Assembly (NCBI GenBank): GCA_029259605.1
Contig: JAJDEV010000135.1
Coordinates: 1-64,000 of the forward strand
Direction: 5' to 3'
Length of the DNA stretch: 64,000 bases
Source: Planctomycetota bacterium
Lineage (GTDB): Bacteria; Planctomycetota; UBA1135; GCA-002686595
In this document: positions 31,341 to 64,000 of the stretch, piece after piece
How the letters are laid out: each line of letters opens with the position of its first letter
Position numbering within the stretch: position 1 is the first letter of the stretch
Translations under genes and position numbers: made by a program
The notes under the pieces: generated by a model
Seen by the model: only the letters and a program-made list of their open reading frames with translations
Database searches by the model: none
Told to the model about the DNA's origin: nothing

Positions 31341-31396
31341 TGGTGCGGGAGAGGGGAATCGAACCCCTACGCCTTGCGGCACAGGAACCTAAATCC
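31341..31396 (-). repeat. attL: duplicated 3' end of tRNA-Leu
   Basis: These 56 bases match 61253-61308 with a single difference (A here, C in the complete tRNA, in the T-arm). They include the encoded CCA, acceptor strand, T-arm, variable arm and the anticodon-stem part up to CCTAAATCC, after which the sequences diverge. It marks the left end of the island inserted in the tRNA-Leu gene. By itself it is not a complete tRNA. Confidence 0.93.
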
Positions 31397-31432: not shown

Positions 31433-32275
31433 TTACGACGTCGCCGCTCGACTGGTACCCCTTCTGGTACCCCGGCCTCTCGTCTCGTGTCGTTCCATGG
31501 CCTCGACCGCTGCTCGTCCGGCTCCGTCCGGAAGGTGACTCGCGTAGCGTTGGGTCGTCAGGATCGTCTTGTGCCCCGCGAGTTCTCGAATCGTCGGCAA
31601 CGGGACGCCGGACTGGGCGAGGCGAGAACAGAACGCGTGTCGGAGGTCGTGCATCCGCATCTCAGGAAACCCCGCGCGTCGAGCGGCGGTCTTGAAGCGC
31701 TTCGACACTCCACCGGGATTGCGGCCTGACCACTCCGGCCAGACGAGATTCGGGCCGTTCATCGGCACGGGAGCGCGGTCCTTCAAGAGGCGGCGAAACG
31801 CGACCAGCGTTCGCTTCGTCAGGTCGACGGTCCTCGGGCGCTTCCCTTTCGATTCGTGGACGACGAGCACCCTTCGGTTGAGGTCGACGTCTTGCCACTT
31901 CAGACGCAGTGCTTCACCTCGTCTGAGCCCCGTATCCGCGAGGATTCTCACAAACGCCCCGAATCTCCAGTCACCGGCGTTCGCGACGAGCAAGTCGACA
32001 TCCGCGTTGGAGACGTACGGAACGGACTTCTCGGGTTCGCGAGCCCGCACCACGTTGCGAACGGGGTTCGCGCGCGCCCATCCCCTTGCCACCGCGAACC
32101 GGAAGGCGCTCGAGAGGATCGCTGCGTAGCGATTCGCAGTTGCCACCGACAGCTTTCGCTTCACGCGAAGCTCAGTGAGGAAGTCCTCGATCATCGCGGG
32201 CGTGATGTCGATGGGCCTTGCGACCACGCGGCGGATCGCAATCGGGCGAACGCGCCGGCTGATCCTGCGTCCCAC
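31433..32275 (-). CDS. Island tyrosine integrase, short N-terminus
   Basis: A 280-residue phage-type integrase read toward attL, 36 bp from it. The core-binding domain (about 24-80: TPAMIEDFLTELRVKRKLS, ANRYAAILSSAFRFAVARGW) is followed by the catalytic domain. That has DTGLRRGEALRLKW (Arg I), KGKRPRTVDLT (Lys), MHDLRHAFCSRLAQ (HxxR) and ELAGHKTILTTQRYASH (His and nucleophile Tyr). All catalytic residues are present. Only about 23 basic residues precede the core-binding domain, so the usual arm-binding domain is missing or reduced. The GTG start is itself uncertain. The tail GTRRGTS is encoded by the 21-bp putative arm site. Confidence 0.88.
   Translation of the reverse strand: MGRRISRRVRPIAIRRVVARPIDITPAMIEDFLTELRVKRKLSVATANRYAAILSSAFRFAVARGWARANPVRNVVRAREPEKSVPYVSNADVDLLVANAGDWRFGAFVRILADTGLRRGEALRLKWQDVDLNRRVLVVHESKGKRPRTVDLTKRTLVAFRRLLKDRAPVPMNGPNLVWPEWSGRNPGGVSKRFKTAARRAGFPEMRMHDLRHAFCSRLAQSGVPLPTIRELAGHKTILTTQRYASHLPDGAGRAAVEAMERHETRGRGTRRGTSRAATS
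31453..31473. promoter_or_regulatory. Putative left arm-type integrase site (two 9-bp direct repeats)
   Basis: TGGTACCCC occurs twice with TTC between, giving a 12-bp period. The identical 21 bases in the same orientation occur at 61123-61143, just inside the other end of the island. Here they lie inside the integrase coding end, 57 bp from attL. Paired short direct repeats flanking both att sites are what arm-type sites of tyrosine integrases look like; the assignment is inference. Confidence 0.5.
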
Positions 32276-37003: not shown

Positions 37004-37129
37004 CCCGAGAACATAGTCAAAGGTGACGGGAGCGGCCAATGTCAAGGACCGCCTGGCAGGAGCCACTCGTAGTTCGGCTGAGCGGAGCCACCTGAGGCAG
37101 CTGGAGGAGTGGCTCGGACGAGCCCGTGC

Positions 37130-37440
37130 ACGGTCGCGGCAGTGAACGGCTCGAGTTGCTAGGACTCGCTTCATGGCGGCGCGCAAGGCTGCCTTTACCT
37201 ACTCGCGGTGTGGCTGGGTCCAGTCGACGTTCAGGTAGCGCTTGATCGACTGCACGACGTCGTGGACCAGGTCGCGTAGGATCGAGACGTCGTAGACCGT
37301 GTCGAAGTTAGCGGTGACGGCGTCGAGCTCCTTCGCGAGGGTGTCGTCGGCGTCCATCTCCATGCGAATCTCGAGCATCGCCCTGATGACGATCGCGGCG
37401 TCGATCAGCCGGTTGGGTGAGGCGGTCTCGGCGTGGAGAC
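37130..37440 (-). pseudogene. Decayed C-terminus of a type I restriction subunit (HsdR)
   Basis: The minus-strand frame upstream of 37199 encodes ANFDTVYDVSILRDLVHD, then VVQSIKRYLNVDWTQPHRE, followed by an in-frame TAG (37199-37201). After the TAG the same frame continues VKAALRAAMKRVLATRAV before losing coherence. The sequence DWTxPHRExVxAAxRxAxKRVL is the C-terminal signature of HsdR proteins, so the TAG interrupts a former gene. No motor or nuclease domain remains. The intact part from the only ATG is 59 residues. It lies just upstream of the TrlF-like gene. Confidence 0.62.
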
Positions 37441-47682: not shown

Positions 47683-47730
47683 CTCCGATCAGTTCAACGT
47701 TTATGTAGCAGCGTGTCTTGGATCGTGGCC

Positions 47731-48969
47731 ATGGCAGAAGAAGATATATACAAGAACAAGAGAGCGTATCTCAGGACGATCGACACGCTCGACGAGCTCC
47801 TTCTGGAGCCCTCGGCGCCGCCGCAGTCGGCCCGAGGTCGTCGGAAGTACTTCTGCCGCAATCGGTCGAACCTCGCGTACTTCAGGGCACTTCACCAGCG
47901 CTTCGAGAGCCGCGACACGAGCTACGTCCGGCGAAACAAGGTTCTGCAGACGCTTCTGTTCATCACTCACTGTACGGACAAGGGCTTGGCGGATTGCTCC
48001 CGCGACGACGTCGACGCGTTCGTAGGCAGGGCGCATGCAGCTCTTCGAAGCCCGAACTCGAAGCGCGACTTCCTGAAGACGACGAAGTGGATCTGGCGAG
48101 CCCTCTTTCCAGAAGCAGACGAGCATGGGCGTCCGGACGAGCGTCTCACTCCCTACGCGGTTCGCCACCTGACTTCATCGGTCGACAAGAGCCAGAACAC
48201 GCTCCGCAACGACCGACTCACAGCAGACGAGTTCCTCCGGATCGTCGGGTACTTCAGCTCGGACCCCCAGACGCAGGCATTCCTCGCGATCGCGTTCGAG
48301 TCGCTCGCGCGTCCTCAGGAGCTCTGCTTCAGGCGCCTTCGAGACGTCGAGCTCTCCGAGCACCACGGCCGCATCTGGGTCAGCTCGCACGGGAAGGAGG
48401 GCACCAAGTTTCTCCAATGCATCGACTCGTACCCCTACCTCGTGCGATGGCTCGAGCATCATCCCCATCAGGCCGACCCGGACGCGTTTCTTTTTTCCCC
48501 GACCCAAGCGCCGGATCGCCCACTTTCGCCCTTGAGCATCAACAGGCGGCTTCGGCGTGCGTGCCGTGACCTTGGGATCGACAAGCGAATCACTGCCTAC
48601 AGCCTGAAGCGCAACGGGGTGACGTTTCGGCGTCTTCGGGGCGACTCAGATCTCGAGATTCAGCATGTCGCGGGCTGGACGTCGACGAAGCAACTGCAGA
48701 CCTACGACCTGTCCAATGCGGAGGACTCATTCCGCGAGCAGCTGGTCCGGCGCGGACTGATCGACGCCGGGAGGCAACGCGACGCAGAGCGGATCGTGGC
48801 CAGTGTCTGCGTGTGCGGGAATCGTGTCGGCTTCGCGGACGCGATCTGTCGCCGCTGCAAGAGACCTCTCGAAGCGAGTCGATCATCCGCGTCGCCCGTT
48901 GGCGATCGGGGACAGGAGGCACAGCTTCAGCGATTGGCGGGGCGCACGGTTGGAACAGACGCTCAGTAA
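47731..48969 (+). CDS. Divergent tyrosine recombinase with C-terminal zinc ribbon
   Basis: 412 residues. The N-terminal core-binding part (KVLQTLLFITHCTDKGLADC; DDVDAFVGRAHAALRSPNSK) is followed by a catalytic domain. It has AFESLARPQELCFRRLRDVE (Arg I), SSHGKEGTKFLQC (Lys), AYSLKRNGVTFRRLR (box II, where the usual HxxR is degenerate) and HVAGWTSTKQLQTYDLS (His and nucleophile Tyr). The C-terminus adds VCVCGNRVGFADAICRRCKR, a four-Cys zinc ribbon. This pattern is closer to archaeal-virus and haloarchaeal integrases than to the left-end integrase. It may belong to a second element inside the island. Confidence 0.75.
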   Translation: MAEEDIYKNKRAYLRTIDTLDELLLEPSAPPQSARGRRKYFCRNRSNLAYFRALHQRFESRDTSYVRRNKVLQTLLFITHCTDKGLADCSRDDVDAFVGRAHAALRSPNSKRDFLKTTKWIWRALFPEADEHGRPDERLTPYAVRHLTSSVDKSQNTLRNDRLTADEFLRIVGYFSSDPQTQAFLAIAFESLARPQELCFRRLRDVELSEHHGRIWVSSHGKEGTKFLQCIDSYPYLVRWLEHHPHQADPDAFLFSPTQAPDRPLSPLSINRRLRRACRDLGIDKRITAYSLKRNGVTFRRLRGDSDLEIQHVAGWTSTKQLQTYDLSNAEDSFREQLVRRGLIDAGRQRDAERIVASVCVCGNRVGFADAICRRCKRPLEASRSSASPVGDRGQEAQLQRLAGRTVGTDAQ

Positions 48970-49031
48970 CCACTCCTCTTGTCCGGCGTCTCAAGGGAAG
49001 GACCCCTCGCATTCCTTCTTCACGAGATGTC

Positions 49032-50297
49032 ATGGCAGCACGGCGGCCATTCCACCCCGGATGGCAATTCAAGGACGGGAAGCTCCTAAGGTTCGGAGCG
49101 AATCAGGTGGAGGTACTGCGCGCGTGGCCATCGCCGCTGGCTTGGCGCCGTATCGGTGGGGGGCCGTGGCGGCACGTGCGTCCTGCGTTCTCCCTTCGCG
49201 AGATCGAGCAAGAGGCAAGCTGTCGGCGCCGCTCTGAGCTCCGCGCCGCGTGCTCGCCGTTCTCGAACCTGCTGGACCCCGCCGACATCGAACGACTCGA
49301 TGCGGGACTTCGAACCCGGGCCGCCGCCGCCCGGAGCTTCCTGGAGACGATCCCTGAGGAGGCTCGAGAGCGGATTCGCCGCTTCCCCCGTCGGCAATGG
49401 CACGTTCTCTCCGTTCTCGCGCGATGCCCCGGGGCTGACGATCTCGTCGACTCGAACCCCGCGCTCGCATGGGCCGTGGCATCCAACTGGATCCTTCGCG
49501 ACCCCTCGGTCAAGCAACCCATGCGCGCTGCACGGCGACTCGTCCGATTGCGCCGACGCGAGATCGTTGGGTGGCTCGGCTTTCCACCGACTGCTTCCGC
49601 GGCCAGGTGCTTCGCCCGGATCCACCCGAAGCGCGTCTCTGTTCCCCTTCTGCTGGACCTCCGGCGTTCCTTGCTCGACGCGGAGTCCTCAAGACTCCTT
49701 GCGCACGTACCGGCCTTGACCCGAGGGGTTCTCGTGCTGACGCAAAGCTCCGCGGTACGTGGGATGGTCACCCCAGTGTTGTTGAACGAGATCGCCCGAG
49801 ATCGGCAGTGGCGGGACAACGTGCGTGGCTTCGTCGTTCTCAACCAGGTCGCCTCGATGCTCGACGTCCTCGGATTCAGACCGAGGGAGCTCTTCCGAAG
49901 CCTCGAGGCGCTCCAGCGAACCCACCGAGAGCTGATGCGCGAAGTACGGTCCAAAGTCAGCCGTCATCGTCCCGTCCGGTTTCCGAAGCCACCCATAGCG
50001 GGTGATTCCCAGATCGTCCCCATCGAGGACTCGAGGTCCCTGGCAGAGGAGGGACGCTCGATGCACCACTGCGTCGAGAGGTACGCGGACCGGGTCCTGA
50101 CTGGGGTCTCCTACGCTTACCGCGTGATGGCGCCGGAACGAGCAACGCTTGTGTTGAACCGCTACGGCGAGGGTTGCGGCGTCGCGGAGCTCCGCGGGCA
50201 TGCGAACGCGCGACCTGCCGCGGCGACGAAGAACGCCGTTAAGCGGTGGCTCGCGGCGAGCGGCAAGACCGCAAGGGGCATCCCAGGAGCTGAGTAG
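49032..50297 (+). CDS. PcfJ-like protein
   Basis: 421 residues from the ATG at 49032; an upstream start at 48813 overlaps the recombinase gene. The N-terminal part is long, Arg-rich and helical. The C-terminal 130 residues have SQIVPIEDSRSLAEEGRSMH, HHCVERYADRVLTGVSYAYR and GCGVAELRGHANARPAA. The mhHCVxxY...G...AxLxGxxN pattern is that of PcfJ-like proteins from conjugative plasmids, of unknown biochemical role. It follows the recombinase by 62 bp, as recombinase-cargo pairs often do. Confidence 0.72.
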   Translation: MAARRPFHPGWQFKDGKLLRFGANQVEVLRAWPSPLAWRRIGGGPWRHVRPAFSLREIEQEASCRRRSELRAACSPFSNLLDPADIERLDAGLRTRAAAARSFLETIPEEARERIRRFPRRQWHVLSVLARCPGADDLVDSNPALAWAVASNWILRDPSVKQPMRAARRLVRLRRREIVGWLGFPPTASAARCFARIHPKRVSVPLLLDLRRSLLDAESSRLLAHVPALTRGVLVLTQSSAVRGMVTPVLLNEIARDRQWRDNVRGFVVLNQVASMLDVLGFRPRELFRSLEALQRTHRELMREVRSKVSRHRPVRFPKPPIAGDSQIVPIEDSRSLAEEGRSMHHCVERYADRVLTGVSYAYRVMAPERATLVLNRYGEGCGVAELRGHANARPAAATKNAVKRWLAASGKTARGIPGAE

Positions 50298-51058: not shown

Positions 51059-51778
51059 ATGAGCAATTTCGCAATCGTGGCCGGTGTTAGCTTCGGGCTT
51101 GTTGCGGTGTTCACCCCCAATGCGACGAACGAACTCTCGGACCGCGCATCGGTGCCCATCCACCAGCTGAAGGCGAGTGAGACCCGCTTCGAAGAAAGCC
51201 CGACGCTTCCCGAGGTCGCGTCATACCGCTCAGCTTTGCGCGCGCTTCCTGGGCCCACCAAGCTGAGCGCACCTCTCCCGGTTAGCGGCGGCCTCACTTG
51301 CAGTACGGGAGGGCAAACCGGGAACACGACGTGCTCGACACCCCCGGGCTCGCAGTGTTCGGCGCAAGGTAACAGCTACGGCTGTTCGGCTCTGAACATC
51401 GATGGGGGGCTCTGCAGCACCTCTGGGAGTGGCCAGTGTTCCGTCATTGGGGGCAACGACTCCCATTGCTCTTCCGCCAACGGATCGGGAATGAACTGTT
51501 CTTCCCAAGGAGGAGGGACGTGCTCGGTCTTTGGCGGAGGAAGCAGCGATGACAACTCGTGCTCCACTTTCAGCGCAGATGCAACCTGCTCGGCGATCGA
51601 CGGTGGTAGCTGTTCGGTGAATGCAGGATCAACAGGCAATAATTGCACCGCGATCTGGGAGGGCGACTGCTCCGTCCAAGTTGGCGCAGGAGGAGGGGAG
51701 TGCAGTACCCTGAATCCGAGCGGGCCGCCGTGTCCCCCAAACTCCAGCGGAATCTGTTATGCAACCGCGGACTGTTGA
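51059..51778 (+). CDS. Secreted Cys-repeat protein
   Basis: 239 residues. An N-terminal helix (FAIVAGVSFGLVAVFTPNAT) could be a signal peptide. From residue 80 to the end there are about sixteen units of 9-13 residues, each built around C-S/T (TCSTGG, QCSAQG, LCSTSG, QCSVIG, HCSSAN, TCSVFG, SCSTFS, TCSAID, SCSVNA, ECSTLN). The region is rich in Gly, Ser, Asn and Thr. A regular Cys-Ser ladder suggests a disulfide-braced beta-helix. There is no C-terminal hydrophobic sorting helix. It precedes the exosortase-like genes by 122 bp and may be their exported partner. Confidence 0.6.
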   Translation: MSNFAIVAGVSFGLVAVFTPNATNELSDRASVPIHQLKASETRFEESPTLPEVASYRSALRALPGPTKLSAPLPVSGGLTCSTGGQTGNTTCSTPPGSQCSAQGNSYGCSALNIDGGLCSTSGSGQCSVIGGNDSHCSSANGSGMNCSSQGGGTCSVFGGGSSDDNSCSTFSADATCSAIDGGSCSVNAGSTGNNCTAIWEGDCSVQVGAGGGECSTLNPSGPPCPPNSSGICYATADC

Positions 51779-51900
51779 GCCATTCTTGGGGTGAACGACT
51801 CGGCACAAGCGAATGACGGCGGGGGCTGAGCGGACACGTTCAACCGCGCCTTGAGAGGGGAGCAAGGTCCAATCAAGAGTCTCGCGCATGCTGCGGTCGT

Positions 51901-54354
51901 GTGTCTCCGCTGAGCGTGGGTATGCTAGGCGACGCTCCTCTGAGGGCAGCCTACGCGGCGGCGTGGTCCGCAGCTTCCATTGCTTGGTGGTTGCTGGAGC
52001 GCGGCAGCGGCCGAACGAGTGCCGTCCCAGCGATCGCGTTGTTCCTCGCGGTCGGCATGATTCGGTTGGCGGTCCAGAAGGAGCGGCAGGAAGCCCCGCG
52101 CGTGCTCGCGCTAGCGGCATGCCTTGCGACGTTCGTCGTCGCCCCCGGAGCGCGACCGACGATGTTCGCTTGCGCGCTGGTCATCTTCGGTGGGGGCCAC
52201 GTCGAACGACCTGAGGCTCGATCGCGCGTACTATACCCCGTCGGACTCGGTCTCTTTGCGTGCTCAATCGGCTTCGGCGCGATCAAGCTCCTAGGCTCGT
52301 TCACGGCTCTTTCCGAATGGTTGTCGTTTCACATCGACGTCGCTCTTGCGACGAGCATGGAGAGCTCGCGGGGCCCCGAGTATGTCGGGATCCCGATCCT
52401 ATGCTTCGCTCTCGTGCTCTCATGGGTCGTTGGAGCGATGCACGCCGAGAAGCCCCTAAGAGTTCGGACGCGAGTTGTGCTCGTGGCGGTCGCGATTGCG
52501 CTCTTCGGCGCGCGCTACGCCGCGAGCAAAGAGAATCCTGCCACGATTGTCGATGCGCTCAGTGCGGCGACGAAATGGGATTACGGATCGATCCTTGCTA
52601 GCTGCGTAATTGGCGCCTGGCTCGCGCCAAACGCTGTTCACTTGCGGAATGCCTCCGGATTGCAAGAGCGTTTGCGCGGTGGGCGGATCGTGAATGCGCT
52701 AGCCGTCGTAGTTGTGACCGCGACGGTCTTCCCCCCGATGCGCGTTCCGAGTCGAGTTGAGTCGACGCCGAGGGTCCTGGTGCTTGACGAGGGTGGGATC
52801 GATTGGAAGGCCCCGACGCACAAGACATATGAGCAATTCGGCGGGGGAATGTTCGGACTACTACCCGAATACGCAAGAACGAGTGGGATCACCATTGCGC
52901 GGATATCACGAGACCAGATCCTCAGAGCTGACCTCGCCGGCGGAAACGTACTCGTGCTGGCAAATACAGAGGCCGCGCTTGACTCGGAGCTCGAGAACAA
53001 GATAGAGGCGTTCGTGAGGGCGGGGGGCTGCTTGTTGGTGCTGGGAGATCATACGAACGTATTTGGCCTGATGGAGGCGTTGAACCCGACGCTCGCGAGA
53101 TTCGGTGTCACGTTTCGATACGATTCTGCTTATCCAGCAGGAGGAGAGTGGAAGCGGATACTCGAGGCCTCGGTGGACTGGCCGCGACCAAGTCAAGGCA
53201 TGACCTATGTGCCAGTCCACGGGATTGGGGCAAGCCTTGACATTCGGTGGCCCGTGATGCCTCTGCTTGTCGGAAACGCGGGGTTCTCCGATCGTGGAAA
53301 CCCAGGCAACCTAGCGGGTGCGCAACTCGGGAACTATGGACTCGACGAGGGGGAGAGCATCGGAGGAATGGTGCTGGCGTGCTGGCGAAAGGTCGGTAGG
53401 GGACGTCTGGTCGTGTACGGGGATACATCTGCGTTCCAGAACAGCTCTCTTCCGACGACGTGGAGGGGGCATGTTGAGCCCCTACTGCGTTGGGCCTGTG
53501 AGGAGACCGGAGTTTGGGATCGGACGGGAGCAAGAGCCGTAGTCGCATTCGTCGGGGTCGCCTTCGCGCTGCTCGTGGCGGCAAATAGACTCCGAGGCTC
53601 GGTCCTAGCAAAGAGAGTAGCGGTACTGGGGCTGGCGATGACGCTGATGCAACAGTACACCTCTTCGAGTCAATTGGCCGCGGACATCGGCGAAGACAAG
53701 CCCAGGCAACGGACTGTCGTCGCGTTCCCGGGCAATATCAGTCCACGCATTGGCCATTACAAGGCGCGATGGAATGACATAAGCGCCTTCTATACGAACC
53801 TTCATCGAGCAAACCTCGTCGTTGACGTCGGGTGTTCCCTGACGCAAGCAATCACACAACGATCGAAAGCAATAGTGCTCGTCGCGCCGGCCGCTGTGCT
53901 TTCGCCAGACGAAGTGTCGGCATTGACCGACTATATGAGCGATGGTGGGACTGTCCTCGTGTGCGCTTCATACTCGGACCGCAAAGGTGTACTTCCGCTA
54001 CTGCGGTCTGCTGGCTTGGAGGTGACGTCTGTGTCGCTGGGACCATTCGGTCAGGATCTACCCGAATGGGAGTACGATGGCCCCAAGTTTCGAGATGCCT
54101 GGGCAATCGATGCGAAGGAGAGCATCGAACTCACCGAGCTGTGCGCGCATGGCGATCTAACGCTGGCCGGGCATGTCGGCGTGGGCCGAGGCGGACTCAT
54201 ACTAATTGGAGACACCCGGTTCTTGAGCGGATCAAACTACGAGCGGGGTAATTGGTATCACGCCGGCACGATCAAGTTCCTCTATGCGTTATGTGAGGCG
54301 TACTTCGGTGGTAGCTTGCGCCCGCCTGCAGAGGGCGAGTTGGGGGGCGGATAA
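51901..54354 (+). CDS. Membrane/GATase-like fusion protein, exosortase-like N-terminus without Cys
   Basis: 817 residues from a GTG (ATG at 51922 possible). Residues 1-275 hold about eight membrane helices; ATSMESSRGPEYVGIPILCF and FGARYAASKENPATIVDALS align with the exosortase-like segment of the next gene, but the catalytic Cys is absent. A DUF4350/GldG-like soluble domain follows (about 285-515: NVLVLANTEAALDSELENKI, GGCLLVLGDHTNVFG, LVVYGDTSAFQNSS). Another membrane pair comes next, then a second such domain (AIVLVAPAAVLSPDEVSALT; GLILIGDTRFLSGSN). Paralogue of the next gene. Function unknown. Confidence 0.6.
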   Translation: MSPLSVGMLGDAPLRAAYAAAWSAASIAWWLLERGSGRTSAVPAIALFLAVGMIRLAVQKERQEAPRVLALAACLATFVVAPGARPTMFACALVIFGGGHVERPEARSRVLYPVGLGLFACSIGFGAIKLLGSFTALSEWLSFHIDVALATSMESSRGPEYVGIPILCFALVLSWVVGAMHAEKPLRVRTRVVLVAVAIALFGARYAASKENPATIVDALSAATKWDYGSILASCVIGAWLAPNAVHLRNASGLQERLRGGRIVNALAVVVVTATVFPPMRVPSRVESTPRVLVLDEGGIDWKAPTHKTYEQFGGGMFGLLPEYARTSGITIARISRDQILRADLAGGNVLVLANTEAALDSELENKIEAFVRAGGCLLVLGDHTNVFGLMEALNPTLARFGVTFRYDSAYPAGGEWKRILEASVDWPRPSQGMTYVPVHGIGASLDIRWPVMPLLVGNAGFSDRGNPGNLAGAQLGNYGLDEGESIGGMVLACWRKVGRGRLVVYGDTSAFQNSSLPTTWRGHVEPLLRWACEETGVWDRTGARAVVAFVGVAFALLVAANRLRGSVLAKRVAVLGLAMTLMQQYTSSSQLAADIGEDKPRQRTVVAFPGNISPRIGHYKARWNDISAFYTNLHRANLVVDVGCSLTQAITQRSKAIVLVAPAAVLSPDEVSALTDYMSDGGTVLVCASYSDRKGVLPLLRSAGLEVTSVSLGPFGQDLPEWEYDGPKFRDAWAIDAKESIELTELCAHGDLTLAGHVGVGRGGLILIGDTRFLSGSNYERGNWYHAGTIKFLYALCEAYFGGSLRPPAEGELGGG

Positions 54355-54359
54355 GAGTT

Positions 54360-56723
54360 TTGGAAGCACTGGCTTGGGCGCTCTTCGTCGGAGGACTTGG
54401 CTGTCTCACTGGCTGGTCGAATCCCGCACGCCCGCTAGTCGGGCTGGCCGCTCTCGGAGTATCGTTTATTTGCGTCTGGCTGACGCACGGGATTGGGCTA
54501 TCGTCGGCGAAGCTCCGGTTTCGTAGCGCGCACCTTCGTCGCGTCGCACTAGCCTACGCAGCGATCGGAGGCGTGACGTTGCTTGTGTCCGCGCTGCTGT
54601 GGCCTGTGATAGTGCGGCAGCCCAGTTTTGCAGTGTTCGCTAAGCTTAGTGCGGCAGCGTTGCGAGCGATCGGCATCGAAGCAGTGGATACAGGGGCTGG
54701 CGTCGCCGTTACTGGTGTCGACGGGTGGACGCATTACAGTGCGAGCTGCGAGAAGGTTGGTTTCGCTGGATTCGTAACGCTGTGCGCGCTCGCGCTCGCT
54801 CTTGGCCGAGGTGGTGCCTCCCGGCGAAGGTACGGTGTCGGATTCGTGCTTTGGATCGGATGTGTCGCAGTATGTCGCTTCGGTACGAATGTGATCCGCT
54901 ACGAAAGCATCGAGAACGTGCTCGCGTCCTCCGGCCGATGGCGATCCCTGCTCATGTCCGACCCCGTCGTCGATCTTGTGTGGTTGGCCGTGGCCACGAC
55001 GCCGTTCATACTTGATGACATCGTACGGCGATCCCGCGAATTGCCTCGAGCCAGCAGCGAGGACGTCGTCCCGGCGCCCGGTGTGCTGCTCCTCTCCAGT
55101 TCCGCAGGTTTCGCCTGCGCATTCTTCGCATTCTGGGACAGTCCCGGAGTCACCAAAGCCGGCCGCGTTCTAATCGACGACTCACTCTCTGGCCTGTGGG
55201 AGCAATCTGCCCGAAGACTCGATCGTGACTGGTACGGAGACATGTCAACGTACAGCTTCTCGCTCGCAGCCGAGTTGCTCGGCTACTTCTACTCAGTGGA
55301 GGTGAACGTCCAGGAGAGTCTGTCTTCCGACTTGCTCCGCAATGCGGACGTCCTGGTCATCAAGACACCAGAGCGGGAGCTGCTTCCAGCGGAGGTGTCA
55401 TCGATTCTCGACTGGGTTCGATCTGGCGGAGGGCTCTTCTTGATCGGAGATCACACCAATCTGTTTGGCAATAGCGCACAGTTGAACCGGCTTGGTGAGC
55501 CGAGTGGCATTCGATTCAAGTTCGATTCGGTCTCCGACGCGAGGACGTCGGCGTTCTCTGTCTACGATCGTCCCCTACTGGGTGCTCACGCGGTCGCGAG
55601 CCGCGTCGCCAAGATGGAGTTCATGTCTTCTTGTTCGCTCGAGCTCGACGGCTTTGCGCAACCAATCATGGTCGTTGGGAATTCGGTAAGCCAACCGGGT
55701 GACTACGCGAATCCGAGCTTCTTCGGGACATTACATTCGAATCCAAGCGCGGAGATAGGTCCCATGGTACTGGCCGCGTCATCGCGTCTTGGTAGTGGAC
55801 GCGTCGTCGCATTCTCTGACAGCACCGTCCTTTCATCCTTCGCTGTGACGCGCGAGGGTCGATCGGAGTTCCTCCTGGGGGCCATCGACTACCTAAACCG
55901 CAAGGATAGCTACGTTTTCATCCGGTACATTCCCATCGTTGCGATTGCCGGGATGATAGCGCTTATTGTATTTGTCGGATACACGAATCGACAAGGGGCA
56001 CACTGTGCGGCGGATTCCTGTGCGATCGTGGCAGCTGGGGGCGCGCTTCTGGGCGTGTCATTGGCTTCATGTGCGAACTGGTTCGCATACGCTGGCAGCT
56101 CGGCCATACGCGAGGTGCCTGGAGTGTCGGTCTTCGTCGATGAAGGCGCTCTTCCGCCAGTTCTGGGGGGCATCGGGCATCTTGATCCGGACTACTGCTA
56201 CGACACCATGTTCACAGCGATTTCGAGAGGCGGGATATTCCCAACTGTCGCCTCATCACTCGAGGAGCTCACGCACAGTCGTGCCGCGATTTGGGTGTCA
56301 CCTGGGTCGAGCGTCGACACTGATGACGTCACGCGTCTGGCTTCATTCGTCCGCGGAGGCGGAAGCCTGGTCGTCATGATCCGGGACGATCACAGGCACT
56401 TGGACGCCCTTCATAACCTTTTCTCTCTCTGCGGGCTCAATCTAGACGAGGTGCTCGACGAGACGAAGGCGGAGACCCGGCTCAGCGACGTTTCTGATAC
56501 CAACGTAGTGAAAGGTGTGCGATCGTCCGCGAGCGTCGTGGGAACAGGGCGACTCGTCGTGCTGTGCGGGCTCGAGTGGTTGTCGAGGGATCGGCTGGGA
56601 CACTGCTTCGATATGCCGGGACATGAGCAGCGAGAGTCCGCCGAAGGACTCTACGCGGCGATAGAGCAGATCGTTCCCTCATTCTCGATTGATCGGAAGA
56701 CCTTTGTGGTGCCCTCCAACTAG
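54360..56723 (+). CDS. Exosortase-like membrane protein fused to GATase-like domains
   Basis: 787 residues from a TTG, 5 bp after the previous gene. Residues 1-225 have about seven membrane helices with WTHYSASCEKVGFAGFVTLC (putative catalytic Cys at the membrane face) and CRFGTNVIRYESIENVL (NxxR). These are two of the three exosortase/archaeosortase landmarks; the third (His) is not evident. Two DUF4350/GATase-like domains follow: VLVIKTPERELLPAEVSSIL, GGGLFLIGDHTNLFG, RVVAFSDSTVLSSFA; and AAIWVSPGSSVDTDDVTRLA, GGGSLVVMIRDDHRH. A membrane pair separates them. An export or sorting role is inferred. Confidence 0.55.
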   Translation: MEALAWALFVGGLGCLTGWSNPARPLVGLAALGVSFICVWLTHGIGLSSAKLRFRSAHLRRVALAYAAIGGVTLLVSALLWPVIVRQPSFAVFAKLSAAALRAIGIEAVDTGAGVAVTGVDGWTHYSASCEKVGFAGFVTLCALALALGRGGASRRRYGVGFVLWIGCVAVCRFGTNVIRYESIENVLASSGRWRSLLMSDPVVDLVWLAVATTPFILDDIVRRSRELPRASSEDVVPAPGVLLLSSSAGFACAFFAFWDSPGVTKAGRVLIDDSLSGLWEQSARRLDRDWYGDMSTYSFSLAAELLGYFYSVEVNVQESLSSDLLRNADVLVIKTPERELLPAEVSSILDWVRSGGGLFLIGDHTNLFGNSAQLNRLGEPSGIRFKFDSVSDARTSAFSVYDRPLLGAHAVASRVAKMEFMSSCSLELDGFAQPIMVVGNSVSQPGDYANPSFFGTLHSNPSAEIGPMVLAASSRLGSGRVVAFSDSTVLSSFAVTREGRSEFLLGAIDYLNRKDSYVFIRYIPIVAIAGMIALIVFVGYTNRQGAHCAADSCAIVAAGGALLGVSLASCANWFAYAGSSAIREVPGVSVFVDEGALPPVLGGIGHLDPDYCYDTMFTAISRGGIFPTVASSLEELTHSRAAIWVSPGSSVDTDDVTRLASFVRGGGSLVVMIRDDHRHLDALHNLFSLCGLNLDEVLDETKAETRLSDVSDTNVVKGVRSSASVVGTGRLVVLCGLEWLSRDRLGHCFDMPGHEQRESAEGLYAAIEQIVPSFSIDRKTFVVPSN

Positions 56724-56728
56724 TTGCA

Positions 56729-59065
56729 ATGAAGGTGACCAAAGAGCTGACCGTCTGGGCAGTACTTGCAGCGCTATGCGTGACCGGTCTCGCCCTCTAT
56801 GTGGCGCGGCGCGAAGAGTCAGGGTATGGGTTTCGGCGCCCGTATCCGCCCACCGTCCCGAAGGAGGCTCTGCCGGAAGCAAGCGCAAGCGTGTCGCCGG
56901 CTCGGGAGTCCATGACAGAGAGTCACACGGACTCCGGCCGAGGTGACCGATCGCGTGAGGTAGTGATGTCGGTGCGCGATTCCCGGGGGGCGCCGATTGA
57001 AGCAGCTGAGATCGCAATTGGCGACACACGACTAGTCTCCGACGTGGATGGATCGGCACGCCTTCCAGCCGGGGCCGCCGAGCGCGCAATCGAGATGGGC
57101 GCTCTCGAGGCTGTCGTTGCTCATCGCCGATTCGTGACGCGGCGTCTTGACATGGCTACGTTATTGGCTATCCGCTCAGTTGTTCTAGAAGAGCGCTGGA
57201 CGCTGCACGTCGACGTTCGCGATGGAAATGGGGTGCCGGTCACGGAATCCAAGTGTGTGATTTCGTTCGATGGTGAGGAAGCGAACTCTGTCCGCGTCGC
57301 ACGTTCTTCATCGAATGGCCTCGTGGAGTTCGCCGCTATCGATGCTGATCTTGTACGCCTGCAGGTTAGTGCGCATGGATTCCGTACGGAAGTGCGCGAT
57401 CTTACGAGATCGTTGGAGTCTCCCACGGTAGTCGTTGTCTCTCTCGCCCCGGAGGCGGTACTCGACGTTTCTGTCGTAGATGAGAACGGGATTGGGGCCG
57501 AGCACGCGCGAGTGGTCGTGAGCCCTGTTCTCTCCCAAGTTGGCGCATCGGGGCCTGCCGTGAAGGAGGGGGCAACGGATGCGCTCGGTCTCGTGCGATT
57601 CGACGGGTTGGAGCGCGGTCGCGCGTACACCGTTACCGCGACCTTCTTGGAGAGGGAGTCCGTCGCAACAGTTCGTCTCGGCGATCGAGGGCGGGACTCA
57701 CTCCTCATAGAGCTCGAGGGTCGTTGCCGCGTCTATGTCTCAATTGTAGACTCGGAAGGAGATGCAGTTGACGGAGAGGTCAGAGTGTCTCGAATCGGAA
57801 CCGGGGATTCCGGGATGTGGCCGGGCTCGGTTCGAGTGCATGACGTGAGCTGGACGAGCGCGGTTGGACCAGACGGTAGCCAAGTTCATTTGGGCGAGGG
57901 CGTCCCGTCGGGTCGGGTGCTCGAGTTCACCGCTTTCGTGGGAGGTGCGTCTGTCTCCTCGGTCTCGAGGGCTGTCGAGGAAGGCGCGATTTTCTCGATC
58001 GTTGTTCCGCGGCACTACCCTGTCGCAGTCGATGTGCTGAACGCAGGCGGTCTTCGCGAGACCGGGTCTGTTCAGTGCTTTCTAACTTCGGGGTTCGACG
58101 ATGACGGGAAGCCGCTGCGGAGCCGTCCTAGGTACGTGGCTGATATTGACGCGCTCGGGGGGGGCCAGCTTACGCTTCAGGCCGGCAGCTACGAACTCAT
58201 GGTACTTGATCACATTGGTCAGGCCGTCTACCGTACAGACGTCGAGATCGCCGGCGCGACAACCTTGGTTTGCCCCCTGGGCACAACTGGATCCATGTCG
58301 GGGGTGCTCGTTACTCAAGGTGGTAGTCCAGTGGCGGCCTGGGAGGTTCTCCTTAGGGACCGGGACGGAGGGGCGTTACTTAGGTCGTTGACTGATGAGG
58401 GGGGGCGATTCGCTTTTGTCGATGTGCGGTCGCACTCCGTCGACGTTGGCGTGGTTGCGCCTCGTACAAATGCCACGCGGTACCTTCGCCTGCGGCAAGA
58501 GCTTCCGACGGAGGGGCTAGTTCTCGAAATCGATGTTGTTGAGGCGAGAGTGTCACTTCTTGACTGGGAGACCGGGGCTGACATCGGGGGGCAAGTGAGG
58601 GTATCGGGTGTAGGCGAGGGCGCGCCTGATCGCTTTGAGTTACCGCCGGCTGTTCGGTGCCATCCGGGGCGCAGAGAGTCGATTCTCTTGCCGGCCGGGG
58701 ATTGGGTCTTCGACTACGAGAGCGAGTCGCCAGTCGGGTTTCACTGGGGTGGTTCCACTCGCGTCAATGTTCGAGAAGCGGGGGATGTTGATCTACTATT
58801 GGTTCCCTACCGGAAGATCAGGTTCGCGGCGGACGACAGGAGGCTCAGCTTGGACGCAAAACTCTATTGGGAGGCAACTCGGTCCGGGCGAACCGTTAGC
58901 GGTCTTCTGTTTCGTCCGTCTGGCGGATGGGCGCAAGAGTCCTGGCACCTCTTGCCTAGTGGGGACGTTTCCTTTGCGCGGTGGGGCGACGGCGGTCCTT
59001 CCGCGACGCTCGGCACTGCGACTATCGGCGCATCGTCTCTAATCGCAATTGGGCAGGACCGTTAG
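56729..59065 (+). CDS. Membrane-anchored multi-domain beta protein (carboxypeptidase-regulatory-like)
   Basis: 778 residues. An N-terminal anchor (ELTVWAVLAALCVTGLALYV) and a Pro/Ser-rich stalk are followed by about six beta-sandwich units of the carboxypeptidase-regulatory type: EVVMSVRDSRGAPIEAAEIA, TLHVDVRDGNGVPVTESKCV, LDVSVVDENGIGAEHARVVV, CRVYVSIVDSEGDAVDGEVR. Later units are degenerate. No catalytic residues were recognised, so a periplasmic structural or binding role is likely. It starts 5 bp after the exosortase-like gene and overlaps the next by one base. Confidence 0.65.
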   Translation: MKVTKELTVWAVLAALCVTGLALYVARREESGYGFRRPYPPTVPKEALPEASASVSPARESMTESHTDSGRGDRSREVVMSVRDSRGAPIEAAEIAIGDTRLVSDVDGSARLPAGAAERAIEMGALEAVVAHRRFVTRRLDMATLLAIRSVVLEERWTLHVDVRDGNGVPVTESKCVISFDGEEANSVRVARSSSNGLVEFAAIDADLVRLQVSAHGFRTEVRDLTRSLESPTVVVVSLAPEAVLDVSVVDENGIGAEHARVVVSPVLSQVGASGPAVKEGATDALGLVRFDGLERGRAYTVTATFLERESVATVRLGDRGRDSLLIELEGRCRVYVSIVDSEGDAVDGEVRVSRIGTGDSGMWPGSVRVHDVSWTSAVGPDGSQVHLGEGVPSGRVLEFTAFVGGASVSSVSRAVEEGAIFSIVVPRHYPVAVDVLNAGGLRETGSVQCFLTSGFDDDGKPLRSRPRYVADIDALGGGQLTLQAGSYELMVLDHIGQAVYRTDVEIAGATTLVCPLGTTGSMSGVLVTQGGSPVAAWEVLLRDRDGGALLRSLTDEGGRFAFVDVRSHSVDVGVVAPRTNATRYLRLRQELPTEGLVLEIDVVEARVSLLDWETGADIGGQVRVSGVGEGAPDRFELPPAVRCHPGRRESILLPAGDWVFDYESESPVGFHWGGSTRVNVREAGDVDLLLVPYRKIRFAADDRRLSLDAKLYWEATRSGRTVSGLLFRPSGGWAQESWHLLPSGDVSFARWGDGGPSATLGTATIGASSLIAIGQDR

Positions 59066-60630
59066 TGTCGCCTTCTGCTCCTCGTGTTCTCGCGTGCGTC
59101 GCGATGGTTCCAGTCGCAACTGCAATCGTGCTTTCAGCGCTCGCGTCCAGCGGTTCAGTCGATGTGCTCGAGTATCGCGGCCGATGGGAGGAGTCTATTA
59201 GAGCTACTCCAGCACATGTCTATACAGCGGATCGGTTCAACTGGGTCGCTGGCACCGTTTGCTCGGAGAACGGCGCACCTCTCTCGGGCGTGGTTGTCAA
59301 GCTCTGCGACAGCCGCGATGGTGTCCGAGGTGAGTTCGAGAGAGTGCGGTCTACCACGACTCGGCACGACGGGGAGTTTCGCTTTGACGATATAGGTTAT
59401 GGTCCTCGCGAGTTGTACTTTTTCTCCGCAGGCAAGGCGCCTCACAGGCTGTCCAATGTTTGCGCGTCAGACGGAGTTCCCCTGGAGTTCTCCAATGCGA
59501 TTAGGCTCCAGAGTGCAGAGGCTATCACGTTGCCTCTCGACGCGGTTATTCCGGGCGTCGATCTCAGTGGGGGGGGCTATGCGCCTTACTCCGGGTCCTG
59601 GCCCGACGCACCTCGCTTCGTTGAGGGCGGCAAGGATCAGATCGTGTTGGAGAAGCGTGTGCCCGACGGGTGGCCACTCGCGGTCTTCTGGCGCACGACC
59701 GATCAGCAGTGGCTTGGACGAGCGATCTGGCTTGAGCCTATTCCTGTCATGCGTGCACCAGCTTGGGTTCGTCCCCATCTGCCGCTCGTGTGGCCTCCGC
59801 AACATCCATCTGTGAATGGAGTTGCTCACCTCGGCAGGCGCGACGGTTCCGATGTGTCTCCTCGGGGCGATGGGCCCACGGGTGAGCTGCGCATACGTGG
59901 CTCCAGTCCGTTCGGCCGTGTGCGCGTGCAGTCATTGGATGGTTCTATACTCTCCGAGGGCTGGTGTGATGCCTGGAGTGAGTTTTCTGTTCTCGATGCT
60001 GAGCCTGGGCCTGTTTTGGTGACAGCGTGGGATCGGTATGGGCGGAGTGTGGGAGTAAAAGGAGCGTGGTGTTTCTCGGGCCAGTCGCGAGACGTCGAGA
60101 TGCCTATCCGCTCTCCAGCGTTCATTGGCGAGCGTCATAGAGTTATGGGTTTTGTCGGGACTAGTGACGGCCTTCCCGTGGTAGGTGCGCGCGTGCGGGT
60201 ATCGGGATCGCTCGAGCGAGGCGAGGTTGAATCCGACGAGCATGGATTCTTTGATGTTGTTGTCGGTGGTCCGTCGAGAGGAGCTCTTGTTCGGGTGCGA
60301 TTGGGCGATCGGGCCAGCGACGTTCAAAGCGTTTCCGTCCTCACGCCACGCGCGATACGGCAGGGAGTCCTGACCAAGATTGTCGAGGTCTCAAGAGGCT
60401 GCATTCGCGTCCATTCGGATCCGCGCTTTGAAGTGTTGCGGCTGGTTTCGACGGACCGTTCTTTCTCATGGAGCACTCGTGCTGCGGGCGAAGCGCACAC
60501 GCTGCATTTCACTAACATTGCCGCGGGGAGCTACCGGCTTGAAGGCGTAACCGATGGTAAGGCTCCCACGGATCTGGGGCTTGTTAGCTCTTCGCAGTGT
60601 AAACGATTCTCGCCTGCGGATTCCGAATGA
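59065..60630 (+). CDS. Membrane-anchored beta-domain protein, possibly frameshifted near its end
   Basis: 521 residues from a GTG that shares a base with the previous TAG (TAGTG), preceded by GGGCAGGA. An N-terminal anchor (VLACVAMVPVATAIVLSALA) is followed by carboxypeptidase-regulatory-like units (VAGTVCSENGAPLSGVVVKL; VMGFVGTSDGLPVVGARVRV). The annotated stop at 60630 is followed, in the +1 frame, by a 45-residue segment that reads like a natural end (SLSVGRCRFVDLEWERQTRY, SVAGLGWGEIDTYDLECR, stop at 60769). The gene may therefore be frameshifted at about 60,560-60,630. Last member of the cluster. Confidence 0.6.
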   Translation: MSPSAPRVLACVAMVPVATAIVLSALASSGSVDVLEYRGRWEESIRATPAHVYTADRFNWVAGTVCSENGAPLSGVVVKLCDSRDGVRGEFERVRSTTTRHDGEFRFDDIGYGPRELYFFSAGKAPHRLSNVCASDGVPLEFSNAIRLQSAEAITLPLDAVIPGVDLSGGGYAPYSGSWPDAPRFVEGGKDQIVLEKRVPDGWPLAVFWRTTDQQWLGRAIWLEPIPVMRAPAWVRPHLPLVWPPQHPSVNGVAHLGRRDGSDVSPRGDGPTGELRIRGSSPFGRVRVQSLDGSILSEGWCDAWSEFSVLDAEPGPVLVTAWDRYGRSVGVKGAWCFSGQSRDVEMPIRSPAFIGERHRVMGFVGTSDGLPVVGARVRVSGSLERGEVESDEHGFFDVVVGGPSRGALVRVRLGDRASDVQSVSVLTPRAIRQGVLTKIVEVSRGCIRVHSDPRFEVLRLVSTDRSFSWSTRAAGEAHTLHFTNIAAGSYRLEGVTDGKAPTDLGLVSSSQCKRFSPADSE

Positions 60631-61252
60631 GGGCAGCTGTATTGTTCCTCAGAGTCTGTCGGTTGGACGTTGTCGATTCGTTGATTTGGAGTGGGAGCGA
60701 CAGACTCGCTATTCCGTAGCCGGGCTTGGATGGGGGGAAATCGATACGTACGATCTCGAATGCAGATAGGGAAGCCCGTCACCAGGGCCAGCCTTCGGAG
60801 GCGTCGTGATCGTATCCCTCTTCGGGCACGCAACTTGAGTGCGACTGTCTTCTGTCGCCCTCGTGCGTCTGTTCGAGAGGATCCCGACTCATAACCCGGG
60901 GGTCATGGGTTCGACGACGGCCCGAGTGAGGTGCCGTGGGGATTCGCGTGGATCTGCCGGAGCGGTTCCGCCCTCCTCTCGCGCGAACCCGGACTCGCGC
61001 TGGCGCCTGTCGACCCCAATCCACTCTAGGAATCCGGAATCGCCTATCTTCTTCCGTGGATTCCGGGGCCGGATTCTCCGGGGGCACGGCGAGTAAGAAG
61101 CAGACTCCTAGCCAGTCGAGATTGGTACCCCTTCTGGTACCCCTCACCTCGCTCAGTGGGTGACGCGACGTGATCCGCCGTGACGCTCGCTCCGACGTCG
61201 GCCCAAGGTCGCATCTCGCCTGGATACCAGCACTTACGGCCTCTGGTGAGTG
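60631..61252. other. Right end of the island, no independent gene
   Basis: 60,631-60,769 probably held the C-terminus of the preceding gene in another frame. The rest shows no coding character. Frames that run through the tRNA are spurious. The region contains the right copy of the 21-bp putative arm site at 61123-61143. Confidence 0.45.
61123..61143. promoter_or_regulatory. Putative right arm-type integrase site (two 9-bp direct repeats)
   Basis: TGGTACCCC, TTC, TGGTACCCC: identical to 31453-31473 over all 21 bases and in the same orientation, 109 bp inside attR. The bases on either side differ between the two copies, so the identity is confined to the repeat pair, as expected for a protein-binding site. 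Confidence 0.5.
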
Positions 61253-61308
61253 TGGTGCGGGAGAGGGGACTCGAACCCCTACGCCTTGCGGCACAGGAAC
61301 CTAAATCC
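61253..61308 (-). repeat. attR: island copy of the tRNA-Leu 3' part
   Basis: 56 bases identical to 31341-31396 except one. After insertion the island side supplies the 3' part of the working tRNA-Leu, while the original 3' part lies at attL. The core ends within the anticodon stem-loop, a common crossover region for tRNA-targeting integrases. Confidence 0.92.
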
Positions 61309-61337
61309 TGCGCGTCTACCAATTCCGCCACTCCCGC
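61253..61337 (-). tRNA. tRNA-Leu(UAG)
   Basis: 85 nucleotides including an encoded CCA. The acceptor stem GCGGGAG pairs with CTCCCGC, and the A discriminator is typical of tRNA-Leu. The anticodon stem CAGGA/TCCTG encloses TTTAGGT with anticodon TAG (reads CUA). A long variable arm (TGCCGCAAGGCG) marks a class II tRNA. The T-arm GGGGTTCGAGTCCCC is perfect. It is the integration target of the island. Confidence 0.96.
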
Positions 61338-61415: not shown

Positions 61416-64000
61416 TCACTCGCCCTCGATCAACGCGTGCGCCTCCGCTTGCAGCTGGTCGACTAGGCGTGCCCAGAGCTCGTCCTGGCTCGAGTTGCCG
61501 AACTGCACCTGGATGCGGTCCGCGCGGGTGAGCGCTTGGGCGGCTGCTGTTGCGTCGCCGAGGCTGTGGAGCGCCATCGCGTGGAAGTATGCGGCGGGGC
61601 GGCGCAGACCTCCGAGGGCGAGCTGGGCGGTCAGTTCGAGCACGTCGCGCGCCTCGTCGAAGCGGCCCGCGCGATAGAGAGCGGCGCCGAGCGGTTCCAT
61701 GCAGGCCGGTACGTCCGGCGCGAGGGCGCAGGCGCGTTCGGCAGCCGCCACCGCTTCCTCGGGGTTGCGTAGGGTCGTGTCGGGGCAGGTCGACAGGGCC
61801 CACGAGAAGTCGGCCAGCGCGAACGCGTTACCGTCCGCGCGGCGCGCGCCCTCGCGCATGGAGTCGATGGCTTCGGCGTGCTCGCCGATCATCGACAGGC
61901 TCATGCCGAGTTCCCACCAAAGCTCGGGTGGAGCGTCGGTTCGGGAGCGCGTGAACTCGCGCGCGATCTCGACCGCGCCACGGTAGTTTTGGCGTTCGCG
62001 CAGGAGCGGTACGAGCGCAACGCGTGCGGCGGGCTCGTGGATGCGCGCGCGCAGGAGCATCTCCAAACGGTCCAGCGCGCCCGCGTGCCGCCCGATGCGA
62101 AAGCCGCGCGCGAGGGTGGCAATGGGATCGCCGAGTCGCTCTTCACCGTCGGACGCGTTGGCCACGTCGAGCGCGGCGTCGAGCGCCTGAAGCGCTTGCT
62201 CTTCTCGATCGAGCGCGGCCAGAACGCCGGCGCGGAAGATCCTCGTCGCCACCGAATCGGGCCGGATCGACTCGCACGCCGTCATGTACGGCAGCGCTTC
62301 CCACAGGTCGCCGCCGGAGAACACGTGGAAGATGCCGAAGAGCAGGTTCACGCGCAGGTCGTCCGGATAGTTGGCGCGCGTGGCGGAGAGGATCGTCTCC
62401 ATGTTGAAAATCTGGTTCCGACTGAAGATCCGGAACAAGAGCAACGTGGAGTCGGGCGTCGCGTGAAGTGCCTGCGGCGACGCGAGCACGCTCCGGATCG
62501 CCTCGCGATCGTTCGAGACGAGCAGCGCGCGCATCTGCGATCGGAACGGATCGGGATCGATGCGATCGGCGACCGGGATCAAGCGTTCGAACGTGTCGAG
62601 GTTCGAGACCATGCTCCACCCGTCGAGGTATCCGCCGATGGTCACGCCGGTGCCGGACGCGGCGCCGAAGCCGAGCGCCTCGAGGCGTTCGACGGCCTCC
62701 GAGGGAGGCAGCGCGAGGACATCGACGCCGAGCGCGTCGAACGCGGCCTCGTAGGTGTGCGCGAGTTCGAGCGTGGCGGCCGTTCCGCTCATGAGCGCGC
62801 TCGGCGAACTCGCGATCGCGTCCATCGCCGTCGTGAACGCGGCGACGCGCTCCCGCTTGTCGAGATCCGCGACGAACGCGTCGCGCTCCTCTTCGATCTC
62901 GCGCGCGAGCGCGTCGATCTCGTCCTTCTTCTCGAGTTCGTTCGTTGTCGCGATCGCTTGCGCGCGAACGGCTGACGCGTAGGCGAGGTTCCACGACGCG
63001 AGGTCCTGCGTCTTGCGCGCTTGGTCGCGCAACGAGGTCGCCGCGAAACGCGCGTCGCGTGCGTCGGCCGCGATCCCGAACGTGCGCTGCAGCTCCTGCG
63101 CCTTGTTCCACTCGTTGTAGGCGACGCCGCCGCCGCCGAAGAGCAGGACGATCGCGACGATCAAGCTCCACAACCACTTGGCACGGCGCTGCACGGCGGC
63201 GCTCACTTCGGCGCGCCGCGCGCGGTCCTCGGTCGAGTCGATGTACTTGCGAACGCGCTCGGCCAGGATCTCGGCGTTGCGCGGCCGCGCGAGCTGGCTG
63301 GGCATCAGGCACTGCTTGGCGAGGTCGATGAGCTCGGGCGCGGCGCCGCTCGCTTCCAGACGCGACGTCGCGTCGTCCACGTTCGCGTTGGCCGCGCTCG
63401 TGATCGCGTCGTCGAAGTCGCCGGGGTACGGCGGCAGACCGGTCAGGATCTCGCACAGGATCGCGCCGAGCGAGAAGACGTCGGAGCGTTCGTCGAGCTT
63501 GTCGACGCGACCGGAAGCCTGCTCGGGAGGCATGTACGCCGGCGTGCCCATGACCGATCCGGCGACCGAGTGCGAACTGCCGGAGCGCGGCTCACCGCTG
63601 CGCACCGTGTCGAGCACCGTGCGTTCGGCGTGGTCGCGCCGCGCGCGCTTCTCGTCGGCGTTGCCGCCGCGCGTCAGCACCTTGGCCAAACCCCAATCGA
63701 CCACCTGCACCTCGCCGAAGGCGCCGACCATCACGTTCGACGGCTTCAGGTCGCGGTGGATCACGCCGCGCGAGTGCGCGTACGCCATCGTCTGGCACAT
63801 GGACTCGAAGATGTCGACGAGCCGCGCGCGATCCTCGTCCGGATTCGCGCGCGCGCTGAACAGCGCGGCGAGCGTCTTGCCCTTCACGAGCTTCATCGTG
63901 AAGTACGGCCGCTCGTCCGCCATCAGCCCCAGCTCGTACACGGGCACGATGCCCGGATGCTGGAGCTGCCCGCCGATCTGCGCCTCCTCGACGAAACGCT
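61416..64000 (-). CDS. Ser/Thr protein kinase with TPR-like tail (N-terminus beyond window)
   Basis: About 861 C-terminal residues; the frame continues past 64,000 ([20 protein letters not shown] at the edge), so the P-loop and VAIK Lys are not visible. Present are [23 protein letters not shown] (DWG instead of DFG, common in this type), [13 protein letters not shown] and [19 protein letters not shown] membrane helix ([19 protein letters not shown]) and a long tail with TPR-like units ([35 protein letters not shown]) follow. A stand-alone methionine at 63947 is internal and not the start. It is the first chromosomal gene after the tRNA-Leu. Confidence 0.93.

Follow-up and report, generated by a model that had tools for sequence, protein, structure and literature searches.

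The substrates of exosortases and archaeosortases (PF09721) carry a C-terminal motif, a transmembrane segment and a basic tail, and the enzymes themselves are marked by a catalytic Cys, a Gly-containing box and an Arg in the following transmembrane helix. The GIFT fold is found in IFT52, GldG, OST48 and the C-terminal part of site-one protease (S1P), and is covered by the families DUF4350 and ABC_transp_aux. For the archaeal DUF4350 family arCOG01314, which has MoxR and vWA genes in its neighbourhoods, a role in a secretion complex at the cell envelope has been predicted (PMC5898192). The RiPP CefA (NF038108) is a 'Cys-every-fifth' peptide. In the open-licence literature on Cys ladders and on exosortase, GldG and DUF4350, we found no description of a system such as the one reported here.

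The locus lies in a stretch of 64,000 nucleotides of a Planctomycetota bacterium (hereafter the window) and comprises five co-directional genes, g1 to g5, in the region 51059-60769 (Table 1). The start of g3, a TTG, is separated by 5 bp from the stop of g2 (54354 to 54360), g4 follows g3 with the same spacing (56723 to 56729), and the GTG start of g5 at 59065 overlaps the TAG stop of g4. The start and stop positions thus bear out the spacings of 5, 5 and -1 bp given in the initial annotation. The same annotation described an exported Cys-repeat protein and two anchored beta-domain proteins, and both descriptions hold, as g1 is an exported Cys ladder with 18 Cys and both g4 and g5 contain CarboxypepD_reg domains (Pfam). 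Proteins of the CarboxypepD_reg type also occur near the g2/g3 pair at other Planctomycetota loci. As for the two fusion paralogues, g2 and g3, Pfam finds two DUF4350 regions in each (E 1e-18 and 9e-13), while the exosortase-like nature claimed for their membrane part rests on remote homology.

Table 1. Positions of the features of the cluster and of the surrounding element in the window.
Feature	Position	Strand	Basis or remark
Attachment-site copy, left end	31359..31396	.	38-bp exact repeat of part of tRNA-Leu
Tyrosine-recombinase-like (integrase) ORF	31433-32275	-	just inside left end
g1, exported Cys-ladder protein, 239 aa	51059..51778	+	sequence, Cys spacing
g1 segment SPTLPEVASYRSALRAL	51197..51247	+	by eye; at best a degenerate SPLF form
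g1 ladder	51299-51775	+	mostly C-S-x-x-G
g2, membrane domain + GIFT1 + TM hairpin + GIFT2	51901..54354	+	Pfam DUF4350, AF2, Foldseek
g2 membrane domain	51901-52728
g2 RGPEYVG	52369..52389	+	family motif L-G-P-T-x-S-G-L; aligns with exosortase A-C-S-G-L box without the Cys
g2 GIFT1	52771-53499
g2 GDHT (residues 382-385), GIFT1	53044..53055	+	with GDTS (53419-53430), conserved polar site
g2 TM hairpin	53521-53685
g2 GIFT2	53716-54303
g3, membrane domain + GIFT1 + TM hairpin + GIFT2	54360..56723	+	Pfam DUF4350, AF2, Foldseek
g3 membrane domain	54360-55133
g3 SCEKVGF	54744..54764	+	family consensus T-[WLF]-E-K-L-G-[LF], close to where exosortases have the CSG box
g3 CRFGTN	54873..54890	+	R173, 73/75; aligned with exosortase N-x-x-R arginine
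g3 GIFT1	55164-55895
g3 GDHT (residues 363-366), GIFT1	55446..55457	+	with Cys425 (SSCSL, 55626-55640) and SDST (55815-55826)
g3 TM hairpin	55914-56087
g3 GIFT2	56121-56666
g4, N-terminally anchored, CarboxypepD_reg repeats	56729..59065	+	Pfam E 9e-17
g5, N-terminally anchored, CarboxypepD_reg / TTR-like domains	59065..60630	+	Pfam E 2e-12; GTG start from sequence
tRNA-Leu, right end	61253..61337	-	other 38-bp copy at 61271-61308

The cluster is located inside a putative integrated element of about 29.9 kb (31359-61308) at a tRNA-Leu gene, with a GC content of 60.7% within the island and 69.4% outside. Location in an island agrees with the pair being patchily distributed, as described below. 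The same island contains a large ATPase that matches the anti-phage protein Ppl (34208-37186, minus strand; PADLOC, E 8e-43) and is likely, from this match, a defence gene. Two further genes lie just upstream of the cluster, one for a second phage-type integrase (47713-48969, plus strand; Pfam E 3e-11), the other for a PcfJ-like protein (48813-50297, plus strand; E 1e-8). Just outside the island, a Ser/Thr protein kinase with TPR repeats is encoded at 61416-63998 on the minus strand.

In a protein search, the g2/g3 pair was found in 12 of the 154 genomes of the order, and the two genes were adjacent wherever contig ends permit. A profile search of named genomes returned 240 relatives, and we retained 80 loci. 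The presence of a g2-type partner could be tested for 77 g3-type genes; in 70 cases it lies immediately upstream in the same orientation, in one it is 6.8 kb off, and in six none was visible. The records with the pair are labelled Planctomycetota, Verrucomicrobia, Desulfobacterota, Bacteroidota, Latescibacterota, Polyangium, Methylobacterium, Clostridiales and Thermoplasmata, these labels being record names, mostly of metagenome bins, so that single odd labels are untrustworthy. The pair with the conserved order g2-then-g3 occurs in bacteria and archaea. Cultured hosts include Methylobacterium nonmethylotrophicum, Sagittula salina, Exilibacterium tricleocarpae and Polyangium sp. y55x31. A search of a viral collection gave no match.

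The membrane domains of g2 and g3 were compared by hhalign with a profile of exosortases collected from the same phylum, and 60 block shuffles served as the null. The g3 domain gave a score of 33 (Prob 40%; null 16.7 +/- 3.0, maximum 27.1) and the g2 domain a score of 22.5 (null 13.4 +/- 2.3, maximum 19.2), and none of the 60 shuffles reached the real score for either protein. In the alignment, Arg173 of g3 is placed on the Arg of the exosortase N-x-x-R motif and the Gly of its EKxG motif on the Gly of the CSG box, with a 4-residue gap just before. The AF2 model of g3 has a short strand hairpin before the helix that bears the EKxG motif. When the 75 membrane domains of g3 orthologues were examined, the column of Cys130 was mostly occupied by Trp (34), Leu (18) or Phe (10), and by Cys in a single case, which is the window itself. 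At the SCEKVGF site, Lys was kept in 45 of the 75 and Gly in 52, and the N..R copy seen in the window was not conserved among the orthologues.

In the initial annotation, just one paralogue, g3, was said to keep both Cys and Arg, and the two were read as an active and an inactive exosortase. The profile signal above the null and the conserved Arg173, aligned with the exosortase Arg, speak for this view, and the Arg is indeed kept in nearly all orthologues. The annotation had named the absence of a conserved Cys/Arg from the orthologues as a refutation, and this holds for the Cys but not for the Arg (73 of 75). The Cys, in contrast, is present in 1 of 75, and on these orthologue counts we rejected an active/inactive exosortase pair, which now appears very improbable. 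The 25 families listed by HMMER for 41 g3-type proteins at a threshold as loose as E<=1 likewise include no exosortase, and g1 has no C-terminal sorting tail, as its ladder reaches the last residue. No match to PF09721 was found in the window's own genome, none of the NCBIfam exosortase models matched g2 or g3, and no exosortase was among the 50 PDB matches listed by Foldseek for the models of the two proteins. Judged by these sequence comparisons, the membrane domain in both paralogues probably has a remote exosortase-like fold without the catalytic Cys; it is probably derived from exosortases, yet is no exosortase by its defining residue. Unlike exosortases, the two proteins also have added tandem GIFT domains.

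The AF2 models were good for g3 (pLDDT 88, pTM 0.92) and moderate for g2 (pLDDT 76, pTM 0.81). Foldseek matched the soluble domains alone, with the GIFT domain of IFT52 as the best match (E 1e-6 to 1e-8) and with S1P, GH42 enzymes and, for g2, OST48 as further matches. A DUF4350/GIFT-type Pfam match was present in all 41 g3-type members; apart from DUF4350 and models of related GIFT type, neither Pfam nor NCBIfam covers g2 or g3. The four soluble domains share the fold of known GIFT proteins. The pair differs from these in that each protein carries two such domains, separated by a TM hairpin and joined to a polytopic membrane domain, and in that the first of the two has the invariant GDHT / D-(S/T)-T site. 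In g2, D383, H384, D508 and T509 were invariant among 59 sequences. In g3, H365, T366, S488 and T489 were invariant and D364, C425 and D487 were conserved to at least 90% among 65 sequences. The invariant or nearly invariant residues of both proteins thus cluster in GIFT1, as GDHT, D-S-T and Cys425 in g3 and as GDHT and D-T in g2. Because both GIFT1 sites look functional, there is no sign of one dead paralogue, and the active plus inactive pair gives way to two proteins alike in lacking the exosortase nucleophile and in retaining the GIFT1 polar site. Since two TM helices lie between them, GIFT1 and GIFT2 are expected on one side of the membrane. From the Arg-rich loops of g3 (residues ~148-156 and ~225-240) and the positive-inside rule, this side is predicted to be external.

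The GIFT domains also raise the possibility that the pair, like GldG, is an accessory to an ABC transporter, here one that exports adhesins or other proteins of the surface, in line with the Pfam ABC_transp_aux match of 41/41 g3-type proteins and with the secretion complex predicted for arCOG01314. This is quite unlikely, as the neighbour families found around the pair include neither a recurrent ABC ATPase nor a recurrent permease, the cargo proteins have ordinary signal peptides, and the MoxR/vWA genes of the arCOG01314 neighbourhoods do not recur.

The neighbours that do recur are exported proteins with regularly spaced Cys, which adjoin the pair in lineage after lineage with strongly different repeats. 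In g1, an N-terminal hydrophobic segment is followed by the ladder, in which 14 of the Cys are in Cys-Ser and the spacing is 6-13. CS-type ladders like that of g1 lie beside the pair at other Planctomycetota loci (L059, L060, L062, L064, L066, L082), and the repeat types across lineages include CxGSxC, TMNPMDxxC, CSxxGG and TCPxxxTxC. By a fixed rule, a ladder-type ORF was found within 6 kb of the pair at 31 of the 50 loci flanked by 3 kb or more on either side, or at 30 without L079, where the match is a papain-like protease and a false positive. The rule also overlooks clear ladders (L130 with 119 Cys, L112, L114 and L060). Among 20 control stretches of 20 kb, taken from seven pair-bearing genomes only so that the comparison is indicative, two matched the rule, one through an ORF of ferredoxin type and one through an ORF that is Cys-rich but irregular, neither of them a tandem ladder. 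With a stricter first filter, ladders were found at 22 of the 80 loci, at a frequency of 5.9% at 1-3 genes from the pair vs about 1% at 4 or more genes. No ladder gene was nearby at some loci, for example L071, L091, L122 and L134, and many of the loci without one are Thermoplasmata. A sequence search with g1 in the 154 genomes returned g1 itself alone; therefore, conservation of the ladder cannot be traced by plain similarity. The ladder part of the first ten cargo proteins tested matched no Pfam or NCBIfam family, save sub-threshold matches to CefA. These arise from the CxGSxC ladders of the L100 and L102 cargo (21-23 bits) and reach 23.3 bits at best, below the NF038108 cut-off of 30, and the cargo proteins differ from CefA in being larger, exported by a signal peptide and encoded beside a membrane pair, with most ladder types unlike CefA. 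A radical-SAM partner, as for RiPPs, was sought by a strict CxxxCxxC pattern, a search that is not exhaustive, and no ORF was found.

Several large proteins were also observed next to the pair. In two cases its neighbour is an RHS-repeat protein with a Cys ladder as the variable C-terminal end (L135 2115-6149 and L092 920-5791), and giant RHS/YD-repeat proteins lie directly before it in several Planctomycetota without clear ladders (L071 117-6662, L109 235-6573 and L138 2727-9146). By eye, the L080 cargo protein ends in a TM segment and an RRRR tail.

It is conceivable that, outside the cytoplasm, the pair modifies the ladder Cys or links them to a glycan, lipid or polymer. In its logic this would resemble the maturation of cytochrome c or an oligosaccharyltransferase with a GIFT subunit. 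Cys is the sole residue kept across lineages in which the ladders have entirely different spacing and sequence, OST48 contains a GIFT domain, and the invariant GDHT/D-S-T/Cys425 site resembles an active site. However, we know of no enzyme of the GIFT-type fold with such Cys chemistry, plain disulfides would explain the ladder too, and the archaeal cargo with the segment described below has few Cys, so that we regard Cys modification as unlikely.

In most bacterial cargo proteins outside Planctomycetota, the signal peptide is followed immediately by the motif [S/T]-P-[L/I]-[F/Y] and an amphipathic stretch. The Thermoplasmata neighbours have the segment SPLFAVRTQRS but just 2-9 Cys, indicating that the ladder is not universal. 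We built a motif model of 27 residues without any Cys and ran it on 30 pair-bearing genomes (E<=1e-3). Besides its own training proteins, which it necessarily recovers, the model found four others elsewhere in those genomes (L207, L208, L209 and L210), and all four are Cys-ladder proteins, with 88, 37, 31 and 15 Cys, respectively. One of them, a Clostridiales protein with a signal peptide, an SPLY motif, a Cys ladder and SLH domains (L209 3000-4457, minus strand), is by its domains a surface-layer-anchored ladder and supports a surface location. In one class of 192 genomes, 3 have the pair, and the motif was found in 2, namely the pair-bearing query genome and a genome whose match has neither ladder nor signal peptide. 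Another of the three pair-bearing genomes (G428) has a ladder gene with STPLFNASL beside the pair which the model overlooked at the cut-off, so its sensitivity is limited. In the window's own genome the best match had an E of about 3 and was treated as absent, and the SPLF motif is generally missing from CS-type ladders in Planctomycetota. The motif is also not tied to the ladder alone, since one neighbour with a clear SPLY motif has TPR-like repeats and only 4 Cys (L119 4939-5883).

The pair could have another envelope role, for example in polysaccharide or the S-layer, with the ladder proteins as merely frequent neighbours. GIFT-like domains are common in glycan enzymes such as GH42, and CarboxypepD_reg proteins accompany the pair in Planctomycetota. 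On the other hand, the motif is predictive of the ladder and the ladder of the motif even at loci distant from the pair, and this alternative is in our view unlikely.

We propose instead, at about even confidence, that g2 and g3 form a heterodimeric envelope machine dedicated to exported Cys-ladder proteins such as g1, in agreement with the heterodimer hinted at in the initial annotation. The proposal is supported by the conserved pairing and common architecture of the two proteins, by the ladder genes beside them, by the motif that led to further ladder proteins, by the SLH domains of one cargo protein and by the GIFT fold. The cargo would be exported through its signal peptide, and in most bacterial lineages sampled outside Planctomycetota the amphipathic segment [S/T]-P-[L/I]-[F/Y]-x3-L... 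behind the signal peptide may mark it for the pair. The membrane domains would serve as exosortase-like scaffolds without the catalytic Cys, of which g3 would keep one Arg at the outer face, and the four GIFT domains, outside the cytoplasm, would be the working face. In the first GIFT domains, the GDHT / D-(S/T)-T / Cys425 site is a putative binding or catalytic centre that may process, anchor or assemble the cargo at the surface. The lack of a clear SPLF motif in g1 and in the Planctomycetota CS-type ladders, the few Cys of the archaeal cargo, the loci without a ladder and the six g3-type genes without a visible g2 count against such a machine. More tentatively still, the pair may belong to an undescribed bacterial and archaeal system of maturation or surface assembly, in which an obligate Cys-less exosortase-like/GIFT pair reads SPLF-marked cargo and the GIFT site does new chemistry on the spaced Cys or on the cargo N-terminus; this is possible but doubtful.

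The system resembles exosortase/PEP-CTERM in its logic of tag and processing, yet is set apart from it by the failed exosortase test, by a cargo mark that is N-terminal rather than C-terminal, and by the GIFT domains. If the proposal is true, bacteria and archaea would share an unnamed two-gene envelope machine with its own cargo mark and with odd Cys-ladder surface proteins, the exosortase fold would have been reused without its nucleophile, and GIFT domains would gain a testable role. Since cultured hosts of the pair exist, direct testing is possible.
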